Position numbers and translations under genes: made by a program. A stretch of 64,000 nucleotides of DNA, taken from contig CAISLN010000086.1 in assembly GCA_903886275.1 (NCBI GenBank), positions 1 through 64,000 on the forward strand, given 5' to 3'. The DNA is from an uncultured beta proteobacterium. Lineage in GTDB: Bacteria > Pseudomonadota > Gammaproteobacteria > Burkholderiales > Burkholderiaceae_C. This document shows positions 2,224 through 9,033 of the stretch, piece after piece. Under the pieces are notes generated by a model. That model had not been told where the DNA came from, did not search any database, and saw only the letters and a program-made list of their open reading frames with translations. Position 1 is the stretch's first letter, and every line of letters begins with the position of its first letter.

Positions 2224-2313
2224 TGAGCGCTACGGCAACCCCGCTGACACGACGCATCAATGCGTCAAGACCGGAAGCTTTGCGACCCCGACTTTCGCGC
2301 GGGTGTGCTCTTG
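2224..2313 (-). promoter_or_regulatory. Cyclic di-GMP-I (GEMM) riboswitch
   Basis: Read on the minus strand, the region shows the conserved GEMM landmarks in order: a P1 5' arm (GAGC), a P2 stem capped by GCGAAAG, the core GGGGTCGCAAAGC, CCGG, a P3 hairpin (GACGCATTGATGCGTC), then AGCGGGGTTGCCG and the P1 3' arm (GCTC). These match the class I c-di-GMP aptamer (core GCAAAGCC.CCGG ... AGCGGGGTTACCG). It lies about 210 bases upstream of the 47-codon ORF and the MASE1 sensor on the same strand, and so probably controls them. Confidence 0.88.
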
Positions 2314-2403
2314 ACGTTTCAGAGTGTATAGCAATATTGCCGATTTAAGTGTTTTAGGCACTTTAAGCGCTTTAAACACTCTTATGAATTGCGTTGAAAG
2401 AAT

Positions 2404-5284: not shown

Positions 5285-5923
5285 GTGCAAACAATCGCCT
5301 TTATCGTCTTGGCATTCGCCATGGGAGCGACGGTCCTGTTCTTGACAGCCAGGCTGTTGCGTGCCCGCGCGGTCGAAGCCGAATTGCGCGAAACCCTTGA
5401 GTCGTTGCAGGCAACCGAAAAATTCCTGAAGGCGCAGGCCTATTACGACCACTTGACCGGACTGGCGAACCGAGCCCTGCTGGTGGATAGATTTCAGCTA
5501 GCGATTGAACGCTCCAAGCGCAGCGGCGTACCCTTCGCCACGGTCATGATCGACCTCAACAACTTCAAATGCATCAACGACAGACACGGCCATGCTGCGG
5601 GGGACCAGGTGCTGATGACCATCGGCAAGCGCCTGCTGGAGGCGGTGCGCGCCTCAGACACGGTGTCACGCCTGGGCGGTGACGAGTTCGTTCTGATCAT
5701 CGAGTCGATTAACGACAGGCACGAACTGGCCCACATCGGCCAGAAGTTGATGGCCCTGCTAACAGAAGATGTGCTGCTGGATTCCGGCACCGTGGTCAGT
5801 TTAGGCGGCAGTCTGGGCTTTGCGCTCTATCCCAGCGATGGCAGCAGCATGGAGCGCATGCTGCAGGTTGCCGACCAGGCCATGTACGACTGCAAAACCT
5901 CGGGCCTGGTGCCCCTGTTCTAG
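5285..5923 (+). CDS. Membrane-anchored diguanylate cyclase (GGDEF)
   Basis: A 212-residue protein starting at GTG. One N-terminal membrane helix (TIAFIVLAFAMGATVLFLTA) leads into a short helical linker. A GGDEF domain follows (YDHLTGLANRALL, MIDLNNFKCINDRHGHAAGD, RLGGDEF). The inhibitory I-site is intact: RASD sits exactly five residues before GGDEF, so product inhibition by c-di-GMP is expected. There is no separate sensory domain. It is a minimal cyclase making c-di-GMP from two GTP. It stands alone, followed by the shared terminator hairpin at 5968. Confidence 0.9.
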   Translation: MQTIAFIVLAFAMGATVLFLTARLLRARAVEAELRETLESLQATEKFLKAQAYYDHLTGLANRALLVDRFQLAIERSKRSGVPFATVMIDLNNFKCINDRHGHAAGDQVLMTIGKRLLEAVRASDTVSRLGGDEFVLIIESINDRHELAHIGQKLMALLTEDVLLDSGTVVSLGGSLGFALYPSDGSSMERMLQVADQAMYDCKTSGLVPLF

Positions 5924-6014: not shown

Positions 6015-6060
6015 TGGTAGGCCGTCACAGACTTGAACTGTGGACCAAAGGATTATGAGT
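6015..6060 (-). pseudogene. 3' half of a split tRNA-Met(CAU) gene
   Basis: Minus-strand sequence ACTCATAA-TCCTTTGGTCC, then T-arm CACAGTTCAAGTCTGTG, acceptor ACGGCCT and ACCA, is the anticodon-to-3'-end part of an elongator tRNA-Met. The missing 5' part lies at 8995-9033 in the same orientation. Using one copy of the shared octamer ACTCATAA, the halves join to a perfect 77-nt tRNA. Its native terminator follows at 5968-5998, so this is the ancestral 3' end. Confidence 0.88.
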
Positions 6061-6087
6061 TCGAACGTCTAGAGGACGCTCACTTAA

Positions 6088-6133
6088 AAATCAATCACTT
6101 ACGAATTCTTGCATGATCGTAAGTGGTTGATTT
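6088..6133. repeat. Imperfect palindrome near the left end of the insert
   Basis: AAATCAATCACTTACGA and TCGTAAGTGGTTGATTT are 17-bp inverted arms with one mismatch and a 12-base spacer. The same arm sequence recurs at 6507-6590 and, more diverged, at 8951-8993. It may be a recombinase or regulator binding site. Confidence 0.7.
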
Positions 6134-6186
6134 CCATACCAATTGAACTGATTTTGTAGCCTGAAATGTAGCCTGGAAAACGCTGT

Positions 6187-6260
6187 GCCAGTAGAGAACA
6201 AATAGTCCTTTACTCTAGCGGACACCTCCATTTAAGGCTGAAAAAATCCTGTCTACTGGC
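6187..6260. repeat. Inverted repeat and partial direct repeat
   Basis: GCCAGTAGA (6187-6195) and TCTACTGGC (6252-6260) are perfect 9-bp inverted arms. The first 20 bases recur at 6364-6383 with three differences (GCCGGTAGAGAACACGTAGT). The latter is itself followed by GTTCTC, complementary to its GAGAAC. No gene was recognised here. Confidence 0.5.
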
Positions 6261-6397
6261 TTGAATATCAATAAAAAAGTGATTACAACCACCAAGTTTC
6301 ACACTCATACGTGCAAGCCAGAAATTTTCCGTAGCCTAAATTTACCGTAACCGAGTCGGATTCGCCGGTAGAGAACACGTAGTTCTCCAGGCTACCT

Positions 6398-6414
6398 CGC
6401 CCATCAGATGGGCG
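6398..6414. repeat. Short GC-rich hairpin
   Basis: CGCCCAT / ATGGGCG perfect 7-bp arms with a 3-base loop inside the gene-free left part of the insert (6061-6680). No T-run on either side, so probably not a terminator. Confidence 0.4.
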
Positions 6415-6483
6415 GTCATGATAAATGTTGATAGATTTTGGTTTACTGCGTCTCTCAACCCTCGCTGACTTTCTTAGCTTGGT

Positions 6484-6611
6484 CACCCGAGTTCGACAGT
6501 TAATTGCGTAAGTGATTGATTTTGTTAAACTTTTATTTTTTAATGGCACGTTTTCGATGCCAAAAATCTCTTTTAAATCAACCACTTGCGAGCAACTGTC
6601 GAACTCGGGTG
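6484..6611. repeat. Large two-tier inverted repeat
   Basis: Outer arms CACCCGAGTTCGACAGTT (6484-6501) and AACTGTCGAACTCGGGTG (6594-6611) are perfect over 18 bp. Inner arms CGTAAGTGATTGATTT (6507-6522) and AAATCAACCACTTGCG (6575-6590) are the recurring motif of the insert. The centre is AT-rich and holds a small GGCA...TGCC hairpin. GAGTTCGA also occurs beside the left tRNA junction (6057-6064). The arrangement resembles a folded recombination site. A 100-codon minus-strand frame crossing it (6283-6585) looks non-coding. Confidence 0.7.
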
Positions 6612-6681
6612 GTCAATGTTTGCTGTCGGTGAGGGGCTTGACATCACTCAGCTTTGGGTTCGTCAGTGCGCGCCAAGTGCT

Positions 6682-6706
6682 ACTCATAGTCTGTAGACCC
6701 ATAGTC
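6682..6706 (+). promoter_or_regulatory. C-box operator of the restriction-modification controller
   Basis: ACTCATAGTC, TGTA and GACCCATAGTC form two adjacent half-palindromic operators. They match the C-box layout (GACTnnnAGTC repeated with a TGTR-like centre) of PvuII-type controller proteins. The box ends 23 bases before the controller ATG, where it would let the controller dimer first activate and then repress its own operon with the endonuclease. Confidence 0.82.
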
Positions 6707-6729
6707 ATCTAATTTGCACGATATCACCT

Positions 6730-6945
6730 ATGGAAATACCTCAAAACCAACTTGGCAAAAAAATTCGAGAGTTGCGGATAGCGCTTGCTATTTCTCAAGA
6801 GATGCTGGCCGAGCTAACAAACCTCCACCGAACTTATATCGGCTCAGTGGAACGAGGCGAAAGAAATATTAGTTTGCGAAATATTTTAACTATTTCCAGG
6901 GCATTAAAAACAACACCATCAAATCTACTACAAGGAATCGAATGA
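6730..6945 (+). CDS. Controller (C) protein of the restriction-modification system
   Basis: A 71-residue Xre/Cro-type helix-turn-helix protein. The LGKKIRELRIALAISQEMLAEL and LHRTYIGSVERGERNISLRN parts form the HTH (RTYIGSVERGERN is typical of C proteins), followed by ILTISRALKTTPSNLL. A C-box lies just upstream and the endonuclease gene overlaps its stop (ATGA at 6942). Known C proteins delay endonuclease expression until methylation is established after entry into a new host, which fits a mobile context. Confidence 0.9.
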   Translation: MEIPQNQLGKKIRELRIALAISQEMLAELTNLHRTYIGSVERGERNISLRNILTISRALKTTPSNLLQGIE

Positions 6946-7538
6946 ACACCAATTCACCCTACTATGGGTTAACGCAAGATAAGTGGCAAATCAAAACACA
7001 AGAACTAATAAATCAACACCCCTTAAAAGAACAGGAAATAATTAAATTCTGTTTGGATGCCTGGGATGGAATTTTCACGTCATCAATCGGGAAAAATGGC
7101 TTAAAAATCGGCGAGCACTTATTTCCTGCACCTCAGATTATTGGTGCACTTTTACATGAATTAATTCCTGCAGAAATTAGCACAAAATACCCTATAAACT
7201 GGAGAGGGGAACAAAATAAAAAGGATAAAGATATTGTTTTCATTCCAGATGATAGGTTCTCTATTGAGTTAAAAACATCATCAAACAAAAATCAAATTTT
7301 TGGAAATCGCAGTTTTGCTCAACAGCAAAATTCTGGCGGAAAAAGTAAAGATGGCTACTACTTGACCGTCAATTTCGAAAAAATTAACGGCACAAATAAT
7401 GCCCCATCAATTCAATTGATACGATTTGGTTGGATTGATCATACTGATTGGATTGGACAATCATCACCTACAGGCCAACAGTCAAGATTATCAGCAGATA
7501 CGTACAACTTAAAACTTAAAACTCTACTCCAAAAGTAA
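6942..7538 (+). CDS. Type II restriction endonuclease, ScaI-like
   Basis: A 198-residue protein. The putative PD-(D/E)xK core is KDKDIVFIPDDRFSIELKTSS, with the catalytic D and the E-x-K of IELK. The downstream GNRSFAQQ, GYYLTVNFEK and IRFGWIDHTDWIGQ segments resemble what I recall of the ScaI endonuclease family (AGT^ACT cutters). The start codon overlaps the controller stop, so the two are translationally coupled. The gene converges on the methylase with a 15-bp tail overlap. The AT-rich codon use differs from flanking genes. Specificity is inferred; at least two AGTACT sites (2826 and 16715) exist in the window and would need protection. Confidence 0.78.
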   Translation: MNTNSPYYGLTQDKWQIKTQELINQHPLKEQEIIKFCLDAWDGIFTSSIGKNGLKIGEHLFPAPQIIGALLHELIPAEISTKYPINWRGEQNKKDKDIVFIPDDRFSIELKTSSNKNQIFGNRSFAQQQNSGGKSKDGYYLTVNFEKINGTNNAPSIQLIRFGWIDHTDWIGQSSPTGQQSRLSADTYNLKLKTLLQK

Positions 7539-8387
7539 AGACTCTTGGGCATTTGACATCTTCCTATCCATCAAATGCCTTTCAATACGCTTTGAAATAA
7601 TATCAATATATTGTTTATTTATTTCAAAACCAACCACAAATCTCTCATTCTCGATAGCTGATATAGCCGTACTACCAGAACCCATAAATGGATCAACAAT
7701 CAAGTCTCCTTTATTGCTGCCCGACTTGATTACTCTGTCCACCATTTCGGTTGGAAATTGGGCGGGATGAGCCGTTCGTTCTTTGGATGATCTATTTTGA
7801 CCAGACGTGACTTTTGCAATCTGCCAAACATCAGATGGATTCTTTCCTAATGGATTGCACTTTAGTTTTCCATTTTTCTTTTGATTTGGGTATTTTACAT
7901 TTGGGTCTCTTACCTCATCCAAGTTAAAAATGTAACTACCCTCATTCTTTACATACCAAAGAATTTTCTCATTGCGTGGAGAAAATCTTGTTCGGCACGC
8001 CACGCCTGCAGCATAGTTCCAAACGATTTCTTGCAAGAGGAAAAAATCTGTTTTATCCCAAAGCAAATAAGATATTGGAACAGCCAGACCTTTTCCCTCT
8101 ACCTTCAGATACCCGACATTTAACCAAAATGAACCATCACTTTTAGTAATTCGATGGATCTGAGCAATCCACGAACGGCACCACTCCACATATTTTTTTA
8201 GATCAACAATATCCTCGTACTCCTTTCCAATGTTATAGGGAGGCGACGTTATGGTTAAATCAACTAAAGAGTCTGGCAATTTTTTCATGGCTTCAATACA
8301 GTCCATGTTGTAGATAGCCACCCTTTCTGCTTGATATGCAGGCCTACCGAGAGCGGAAAGGACTTTATCGAATTTGTCTTTTTGCAT
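7524..8387 (-). CDS. DNA methyltransferase (probably N4-cytosine) of the restriction-modification system
   Basis: A 287-residue beta-class methylase. Catalytic motif IV TSPPYNIGK comes early (near residue 48) and the AdoMet-binding motif I DPFMGSGST comes late, followed by GFEINKQYI. The SPPY tetrapeptide favours N4-methylcytosine, though N6-adenine is possible. The start is the ATG of MQKDKFDKVLSALG; the frame stays open upstream to 8489, into the terminator of the tRNA-Ile, so that extension is unlikely. Convergent with the endonuclease gene. It protects host DNA from the partner enzyme. Confidence 0.88.
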   Translation of the reverse strand: MQKDKFDKVLSALGRPAYQAERVAIYNMDCIEAMKKLPDSLVDLTITSPPYNIGKEYEDIVDLKKYVEWCRSWIAQIHRITKSDGSFWLNVGYLKVEGKGLAVPISYLLWDKTDFFLLQEIVWNYAAGVACRTRFSPRNEKILWYVKNEGSYIFNLDEVRDPNVKYPNQKKNGKLKCNPLGKNPSDVWQIAKVTSGQNRSSKERTAHPAQFPTEMVDRVIKSGSNKGDLIVDPFMGSGSTAISAIENERFVVGFEINKQYIDIISKRIERHLMDRKMSNAQESLLLE

Positions 8388-8474
8388 GATGCTACTTATA
8401 GTATTCAATACATGCCACTGAGTCAAGTCAACAGCAGCATTCGTGTTTTGTCTTGTGAGGACTACGCCAAGCGA

Positions 8475-8510
8475 TAAAAAAAGCCGCAACCTGTTACCAA
8501 GCTGCGGCTT
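8475..8510 (-). terminator. Terminator of the intron-bearing tRNA-Ile
   Basis: AAGCCGCA / TGCGGCTT perfect 8-bp arms followed on the minus strand by a run of seven T. It lies 8 bases beyond the tRNA 3' CCA. Confidence 0.75.
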
Positions 8511-8517
8511 TCATGTT

Positions 8518-8847
8518 TGGTGGGCCCCCCGAGAGTCGAACTCGGCACCAACGGATTATGCTTACCAACTACGGCTTTCGCCGCCCCTTTCGGGTTTGTG
8601 GTCTGGACTGTCTCTTGTCTTTACGACCTGCCCGTACAGTCTCTACACGTTCTCTCTAACGAGAGCTTCGCTCGGGATTGCCACGCTGCCTAAGCAACAG
8701 AGGTTTCCCCGAATTTGAACAGTTCTACCAAGGGACAGAGTGAACTTATCCCAAGGCAACCCATCTTTGCACCATCCGTATTCTTGCGAACCGTAGGACG
8801 ATGCAGACTTAAGTCCGCTGCTCTAACCAAGCATGAGCTAGAGGCCC
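8518..8847 (-). tRNA. tRNA-Ile (CAU) interrupted by a group I intron
   Basis: Exon 1 (8812-8847) is acceptor GGGCCTC, D-arm GCTC-loop-GAGC and GCGGACT. Exon 2 (8518-8560) is CATAATCCGT, variable loop TGGTG, T-arm CCGAGTTCGACTCTCGG, acceptor GGGGCCC and ACCA. Joined, the anticodon arm reads GCGGA-CTCATAA-TCCGT, anticodon CAU. Exon 2 is nearly the same as the 3' exon of Azoarcus tRNA-Ile(CAU), which also has a group I intron, so the lysidine-modified Ile tRNA is more likely than Met. The D-loop (11 nt) is two bases longer than in the Azoarcus tRNA. The exact 5' splice site is my inference. Confidence 0.8.
8561..8811 (-). ncRNA. Self-splicing group I intron (251 nt, no ORF)
   Basis: On the minus strand the conserved group I core elements appear in order. 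P is AAATTCGGGGAAACC and Q is AATCCCGAGC, giving P4 TTCGGG/CCCGAG. P5 is a CTGTTGC/GCAGCG hairpin and P6 is CTCTC/GAGAG. R is GTGTAGAGACTGTACGG and S is GACAGTCCAGACC, giving P7 GACTGT/ACAGTC. P9 is CCCGAAAGGG, with a second GGCGAAAGCC hairpin. A terminal G precedes exon 2. An 8-bp P2 (CATCGTCC/GGATGGTG) ends in a GCAA tetraloop. The layout resembles the Azoarcus intron. It lies between U33 and C34 of the anticodon loop. Confidence 0.85.
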
Positions 8848-8950
8848 TTAAAACGCTAAATCCTACCGCATCAGGCTACATCTGAAACCAAAAATCTGCC
8901 CATCTGTAGCCTATGTGTAGCCTTTCCTAATTTTTTACCTTGACGACAAT

Positions 8951-8993
8951 CGTAACTCATTGATTTTATTGAAATTTTAAAATCAACTATTTG
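8951..8993. repeat. Diverged palindrome at the right end of the insert
   Basis: CGTAACTCATTGATTT and AAAATCAACTATTTG form weak inverted arms that share the AAATCAA core with the palindromes at 6088 and 6507. The element abuts the 8-bp junction octamer at 8995. Confidence 0.45.
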
Positions 8994-8994
8994 T

Positions 8995-9033
8995 TTATGA
9001 GTCCTCTGCTCTAACCAACTGAGCTAACGGCCC
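8995..9033 (-). pseudogene. 5' half of the split tRNA-Met(CAU) gene
   Basis: Minus strand: acceptor GGGCCGT, TA, D-arm GCTCAGTTGGTTAGAGC, A, anticodon stem GAGGA and loop CTCATAA, then unrelated AT-rich DNA. The 3' half lies 2.9 kb downstream at 6015-6060. The 5' end is 23 bases beyond the hrcA stop, so this is the ancestral position. As it stands no intact tRNA is encoded, so another tRNA-Met copy must serve the cell. Confidence 0.88.

Follow-up and report, generated by a model that had tools for sequence, protein, structure and literature searches.

A small integrative element splits a bacterial CAU tRNA gene and carries a complete second copy interrupted by a group I intron

We analysed a stretch of 64,000 nt, referred to as the window, from an uncultured beta proteobacterium (contig CAISLN010000086.1, positions 1 to 64,000). 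In this window, a 2.9-kb element interrupts a tRNA gene, very probably tRNA-Ile2(CAU), in the anticodon loop. The resident gene stays split, and just inside one of its ends (attL) the element carries a complete second tRNA gene, which is itself interrupted by a group I intron within the core sequence at which the element is joined to its target. The same arrangement was found in 39 loci. We are highly confident of the structural arrangement and consider it probable, as a whole, that the element replaces the entire gene and that the intron hides the spare tRNA from the integrase; the shielding itself, which is deduced from the sequence, we favour with moderate confidence.

According to the mechanism proposed here, a small integrative element of 2.9 kb would have inserted into the anticodon loop of the resident tRNA-Ile2(CAU) gene through recombination of 8-bp cores, and would supply a whole replacement tRNA-Ile2 just inside attL and not a replacement half. 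The intron would splice itself from the transcript to leave a normal tRNA. At the DNA level, the core split by the intron would no longer be an attachment site, so that the integrase could neither reinsert nor wrongly excise there. The element, which has no recombinase, would probably be moved in trans by an integrase reading paired arm sites, or would have lost an integrase of its own.

The split tRNA gene and its replacement

On the minus strand of the window, hrcA is followed by the 5′ half of the tRNA gene, which has the 8-bp core ACTCATAA at its end, 2934 bp of unique DNA, a second copy of ACTCATAA, the 3′ half, and a hairpin. The tRNA features are as follows.

8995-9033, minus strand: 5′ half of the resident gene, very probably tRNA-Ile2(CAU), core included, on the attL side; uninterrupted in genomes G116 and G018
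8995-9002, minus strand: core repeat ACTCATAA, attL copy
6053-6060, minus strand: core repeat ACTCATAA, attR copy
6015-6052, minus strand: 3′ half of the same resident gene with encoded CCA, on the attR side
8812-8847, minus strand: 5′ exon of the replacement tRNA (CAU), 36 nt long, with U33 as its last nucleotide
8561-8811, minus strand: 251-nt group I intron between U33 and C34, within the core sequence
8518-8560, minus strand: 3′ exon of the replacement tRNA, 43 nt long, CCA encoded

A preliminary description of this locus had pointed out an 8-bp direct repeat at the junctions, the intactness of both tRNA halves and of the native terminator, and an excision that would rebuild a 77-nt tRNA. 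All of this was borne out: the 8-bp repeat, weak when taken alone (2 occurrences in the window versus 0.37 expected, 2 reached in 9 of 100 shuffles), has both copies exactly on the tRNA breakpoints, the halves and the downstream hairpin are intact in the window, and the joined flanks fold into a 77-nt cloverleaf with the anticodon CAT in ARAGORN. The element was further compared with its own genome of 5.2 Mb and with 103 genomes of the genus. An empty site, which the description had suggested looking for, occurs in the nearest uninterrupted relatives, where flank and whole tRNA match by 97% over 111 bp (G116) and by 99% over 100 bp (G018). The uninterrupted gene is common in the genus, with a single match across the whole tRNA in 55 of the 103 genomes and G028 making 56. 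Synteny with G116 on the hrcA side extends over 1.1 kb; on the far side, no match to the three relatives compared was obtained past approximately 10–20 bp beyond the tRNA. Like a genomic island, the element has tRNA-derived direct repeats at both ends, and in relatives the site is uninterrupted. A fragment restoring the target was not found; the junctions hold the 8-bp core only, and a whole second gene is carried instead.

This second gene, a complete CAU tRNA at 8847-8518 on the minus strand, consists of exons of 36 and 43 nt with 251 nt between them. The preliminary statement that the tRNA is not restored stands insofar as no replacement half is carried, but it overlooked the complete copy within the element. 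The corollary, loss of tRNA function unless RNA or DNA is rejoined, falls, since the element brings an entire replacement tRNA and rejoining is not needed. Splicing of the intron and function of the replacement tRNA are predictions. Scans around the replacement for consensus promoters and terminators gave 0 and 0; the copy, situated just inside attL on the strand of the resident, may use the resident promoter. Replacement and resident are identical at 63 of 79 aligned positions and differ at 16, and the replacement shares 78 of 79 positions with the copy in a Herbaspirillum element. Because it is nearer to the latter than to the resident, and because a Janthinobacterium element with different cargo aligns at 80.6% with the first 527 bp of the window element, the replacement tRNA appears to be of foreign origin. 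Given the 16 differing positions, swapping one half would be expected to produce a mismatched acceptor stem, which the carriage of a whole gene would avoid.

The intron boundary was set by intronless relatives in which the exons are adjacent (G037, G039, G043 and G049), and the intron interrupts the core as ACT^CATAA. Rfam family RF00028 matches part of the insert (27.5 bits, E 0.00028). Among ten loci of relatives scanned, two (L069 and L081) reached the gathering score of this family, both with an intron at another site. Fifteen aligned introns of the same insertion type (type A) fit a group I core with the P3/P7 pseudoknot, with 98.8% of the cells paired and a structure score of 0.429 versus 0.026–0.080 for slid versions. 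Both-side changes occur in 25 of 54 pairs, and one P7 pair covaries. As in group I introns, a U precedes the intron and a G terminates it in 15 of 15 cases, and core helices P3, P4-P6, P7 and P8 are conserved with covariation; these helix names are our presumptive assignment.

Recurrence, cargo and movement

Species genomes were scanned for a tRNA 5′ half followed by another within a set distance; orientation and distance were imposed, and an intron was not required. The scan yielded 35 stretches, 30 of which had the clear arrangement. Four were dropped as their first copy seems unsplit at the core (L088, L100, L117 and L122), and one as its arrangement was not clear (L095). The 30 loci, seven from the genus (the window, G033, G077, G022, G032, G074 and G013) and two found order-wide (L184 and L186) make up the 39 loci. 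These have 39 distinct junction sequences, and the halves are 136–271 bp apart. The replacement copy lies just inside attL on the strand of the resident in all 39, orientation and distance having been imposed by the scan on 30 of them. Closed loci consist of attL, a short arm region and a complete tRNA, followed by differing cargo and attR, and some have an integrase. Most loci are from Betaproteobacteria, and many of the 30 are metagenome bins. By record title, the 30 include Rhodoferax, Limnohabitans, Undibacterium, Janthinobacterium, Herbaspirillum, Castellaniella, Nitrosomonas and Methylotenera, and two are Gammaproteobacteria by NCBI taxonomy, namely a Litoricola bin, whose replacement has an intron, and a Pseudohongiella isolate, whose replacement has none. 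All 37 assembled tRNAs, some of them resident, intronless or doubly fetched copies, fold with the anticodon CAT.

Viral contigs gave no match to the architecture pattern. Among phages, a single match was obtained, in Bordetella phage vB_BaM-IFTN8 (OM293957.1:23968-24022); it is short, covers the 3′ region of the tRNA and could represent an ordinary attP for this gene. Partial matches occurred in 14 plasmid records, none reaching 80% query coverage. Bradyrhizobium plasmids, for example CP094621.1:160748-160926, match the intron core at 70%, with no annotated feature at this position. At another locus, L078 (G079:C1:1989300-2001900), an intact tRNA lies 12 kb from a 5′ half that shares its upstream flank, perhaps representing an island that restores the 5′ half instead.

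The window element carries three genes.

6730-6945, plus strand: helix-turn-helix protein, probable controller (C) protein of a restriction-modification system (PF01381; PADLOC Control_protein 1.7e-21)
6942-7538, plus strand: ScaI-type restriction endonuclease (PF09569, E 1.1e-71; PADLOC REase_II 5e-83)
7524-8489, minus strand: N6/N4 DNA methyltransferase (PF01555, E 6e-60; PADLOC MTase_II 3.7e-65); longest open reading frame, with an internal ATG near 8387 as a possible start

The ScaI-family endonuclease, the methyltransferase and the controller together constitute a Type II restriction-modification system of the ScaI type. No integrase is among the three genes, and contig C86 gave no PF00589 match in six frames. 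Larger relatives do contain a tyrosine integrase. The integrases of three of these elements (Limnohabitans, G114 and G074), together with the integrase-like gene of G162, are situated directly behind the replacement tRNA and form one family (35–99% identical), of which L099, L204, L092, L101, L113, L155 and L094 hold further relatives, some cut by the locus ends. A different integrase lineage with an arm-binding domain is located near attR in G033 and G077. Apart from the integrase adjoining the tRNA, three integrase-bearing elements contain a second, short (188–191 aa) tyrosine-recombinase-like gene (L160:7911-8483; L073:6107-6673; L076:5925-6500).

In six closed elements of 1.2–6.5 kb, six-frame searches between the element ends gave no Phage_integrase match, other recombinases having been covered by single-protein Pfam scans only. 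The cargo of these elements comprises the ScaI-type system of the window, a beta-lactamase-fold protein in G032, a HindVP-type restriction-modification system in Undibacterium pigrum (L157), an ABC-3C system in Janthinobacterium (L156), RES and Xre-type toxin-antitoxin genes in L158, and one unmatched open reading frame in L159. Short paired repeats occur inside both ends of the window element.

8905-8922, minus strand: paired repeat GGCTACA/GGCTACA inside the attL end, probable (predicted) integrase arm sites
6155-6173, minus strand: paired repeat GGCTACA/GGCTACA inside the attR end, probable (predicted) integrase arm sites

The repeats are spaced by 11 bp in the attL end. At a word length of 7, such pairs were present in 7 of 10 closed elements versus 4 of 1000 base-shuffled ends, and at a word length of 8 in 4 of 10 versus 0 of 1000. 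The word AGGCTAC is common to the window, Janthinobacterium and Undibacterium elements, and the doublet GGCTACA-N2-6-GGCTACA occurs only twice in the window's own 5.2-Mb genome, at the two element ends. This pattern suggests arm sites for a tyrosine integrase that acts in trans, and recombination would accordingly be of the tyrosine type; mobilisation of the integrase-less elements in trans is plausible, with about even odds.

Further features of the window were noted. Inside the attR end, a cluster of inverted and direct repeats at 6087-6616 (TAAGTGATTGATTT-like, and a 23-nt pair), with another copy at 8951 in the attL end, possibly contains further recombinase sites. A c-di-GMP-I riboswitch above the gathering score is located at 2231-2319 (minus strand), and a gene encoding a GGDEF diguanylate cyclase at 5285-5923 (plus strand) adjoins the attR side.

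6479-6616, unstranded: inverted repeat of 23 nt (91%), arms separated by 92 nt, inside the attR end

Intron distribution and alternative readings

An intron is present in 35 of the 39 replacements, complete in 30 and cut by a contig end or assembly gap in five (L096, L097, L103, L105 and L114). It is inserted either between positions 33 and 34 (type A; 244–285 nt in the 15 aligned introns, residents included) or between 36 and 37, after the anticodon, and both sites interrupt the core. The 36/37 introns fall into a short class of 203–215 nt, which we take to resemble the Azoarcus pre-tRNA-Ile intron, and a longer class of 245–264 nt. The intronless replacements are those of L104 and L106, in which the anticodon stem is altered, and of L120 and L121, in which it is not.

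Within the genus, 82 genomes have a 5′ half and the other 21 gave no match to the 5′-half pattern. The 82 comprise 56 intronless residents, 11 residents with an intron (G078, G021, G106, G107, G108, G019, G004, G010, G097, G031 and G100), nine element-borne copies, and six others (G083, G091 and G102, cut inside the tRNA; G036 and G109, with an intron but no upstream sequence; G117, a split half only). Three genomes counted among the 56 (G006, G079 and G098) each also have a stray or unresolved 5′ half, and a further intron copy of G022 on C196, with no half in 655 bp upstream, was left out of the counts. No split half was found within at least 323 bp upstream of the 11 intron-bearing residents. 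Introns occurred in 8 of 9 element copies of the genus versus 11 of 67 residents (Fisher 3e-5), and the comparison of all 39 element copies with the 67 residents gave 4e-14, values that overstate independence and are too small as probabilities, since the 39 loci are partly related. Introns are frequent in residents too, but much more so in element copies.

A case suggestive of shielding is provided by locus L203 (G162:C4:84000-103700). Here, the resident half comes first, then a second half, itself split where the core is intact, and then a copy with a type-A intron. Behind the intron copy lie the integrase-like gene, a BLAST relative of the Limnohabitans integrase, and type I restriction-like genes (named by eye), and after these a fourth tRNA 5′ exon with the start of a 36/37-type intron, and insertion sequence-like genes; matching 3′ halves were not found at the locus. 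In the order of events that we infer, the insertions would be stacked, the copy with the intact core having been hit itself and the intron copy following.

In addition to the partial relatedness of the loci, several observations weigh against shielded whole-gene replacement. Eleven resident genes of the genus carry introns, and four of the 39 replacements do not. In a sample of 399 genomes from the order, resident genes with no split half within about 1.2–1.5 kb upstream make up 15 of the 18 type-A intron loci (18 of 20 intron-overlapping places were fetched, leaving out G343:C60 and G453:C23). The window intron remains under the RF00028 gathering score (27.5 versus 50 bits). Three of the 10 closed elements are without the doublet, and a reversed control of the doublet also occurs twice in the window's own genome. 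No helper integrase emerged when 12 of the 15 PF00589 places in this genome were compared with known element integrases, which gave one weak local match.

Part of these observations would fit a replacement that is real but in which the intron is a mere passenger, acquired from intron-bearing residents and shielding nothing. Intron-bearing resident tRNA-Ile2 genes are indeed common in the order, where they account for 15 of 18 type-A loci, and the genus has them as well (11 of 67); group I introns favour tRNA anticodon loops anyway. We nevertheless consider this explanation rather unlikely in view of the 35 of 39 element copies with an intron versus 11 of 67 residents, the occurrence of introns at two sites and in three length and sequence classes, and the altered anticodon-stem bases in two of the four intronless copies.

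The locus could also be a decayed ordinary genomic island that lost its replacement half and integrase and whose inner tRNA is unrelated cargo. The window element has no integrase, and islands with a duplicated 3′ half do occur at the same gene in the genus (G061, G062 and G090). This explanation is already disfavoured, and we regard it as very improbable, because the order of attL, short arm region and complete tRNA is kept in 39 loci and closed loci carry varied cargo and attR, some with an integrase.

In the preliminary description, the split gene had been taken for tRNA-Met. The window's own assembly contains 40 tRNAs by Rfam, all typed with ARAGORN, and CAU occurs in three, one elongator tRNA-Met (C119) and two initiators; neither interrupted CAU gene was recovered by default ARAGORN or by Rfam at the gathering score. 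Among the 40, tRNA-Ile(GAU) is missing; the assembly therefore has gaps, and a second tRNA-Ile2 gene may reside in unassembled sequence. The uninterrupted G116 gene has a CAU anticodon and is closer to known Ile2 genes than to Met genes. Among its E. coli matches listed, four of five are annotated as tRNA-Ile and one as tRNA-Lys, and the tRNA-Ile match checked has the anticodon CAT. The genome also contains tilS. TilS is the lysidine-making enzyme, and tRNA-Ile2(CAU), which reads AUA, is essential in bacteria. Since a separate elongator and two initiators remain and the E. coli relative is a tRNA-Ile with CAT, it is very probable that the split gene encodes tRNA-Ile2(CAU) rather than tRNA-Met. 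The search for other elongator copies that had been advised thus did turn up one, but the split gene itself is not of that type. That it could still be an elongator tRNA-Met, with the inner tRNA being something else, is suggested by the Met label that ARAGORN gives to every CAU tRNA; against the separate elongator, tilS, the E. coli matches and the accounting of all remaining CAU tRNAs as this Met and two initiators, we hold it to be highly improbable. Least credible is a rejoining of the resident halves by trans-splicing of RNA or frequent excision of DNA, for which the intact halves and hairpin and the rebuilding of the gene by core-to-core excision would speak, but which is unnecessary given the replacement and is opposed by altered 5′ halves of the resident in G032 and G013.

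Under replacement of the whole gene by a copy shielded by its intron, no match to the host tRNA would be needed, integrase-less defence cassettes could share the site in trans, and introns in anticodon loops would have a selective reason; to these consequences we assign an even chance of being correct.

Comparison with known systems

The arrangement does not follow the rule whereby tRNA islands rebuild their target from a fragment. It offers a testable reason for where group I introns sit in bacterial tRNA genes, and a compact carrier of defence systems that was overlooked here by default tRNA searches. Within open-licence papers, screened by title or start of the abstract, the arrangement was not found in bacteria.

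Islands are described as restoring the split tRNA gene with their own sequence (Islander, PMC4383910). The elements resemble such tyrosine-integrase islands in the anticodon-loop crossover, the direct repeat, the precise ends and the class of target gene, and in the integrase of larger relatives. In contrast to those islands, in which a fragment rebuilds the target (PMC4383910), the elements described here leave the target interrupted and bring an entire second gene, in most cases with an intron inside the core. A doubled arm-like motif is shared with satellites that have doubled attP motifs, and tRNA-Ile2 is among the targets of related elements (PMC10111431). Unlike our elements, the satellites as presented in that paper do not replace a whole tRNA, and the word 'intron' is absent from its main text.

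Concerning the introns, the Azoarcus pre-tRNA-Ile intron is likewise a group I intron in tRNA-Ile (PMC3984707); the window intron, at 33/34, is of another type. The main text of this review of bacterial group I introns does not contain the words 'integrase' or 'genomic island'. A survey of the tmRNA T-loop reported several group I intron invasions of one loop (PMC11915505), and our loci similarly point to several founding invasions in a small region of a gene used by islands; the available text of the survey connects these introns neither with shielding nor with copies carried by elements.

That introns protect tRNA genes has already been proposed for Archaea (PMC3293823, PMC4390854), and the present loci add many bacterial cases to an idea until now argued for that domain. 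At the tRNA-Thr locus of Caldiarchaeum, the authors suggest that a gained intron could exclude further elements (Sugahara et al. 2012, PMC3293823). As in our loci, a 5′ tRNA fragment lies upstream of an intron-bearing tRNA, there with a recombinase between them. The Caldiarchaeum case concerns a protein-spliced archaeal intron at one locus in one population (PMC3293823), whereas the arrangement described here involves group I introns and 39 loci in Proteobacteria, several of them with defence cargo.

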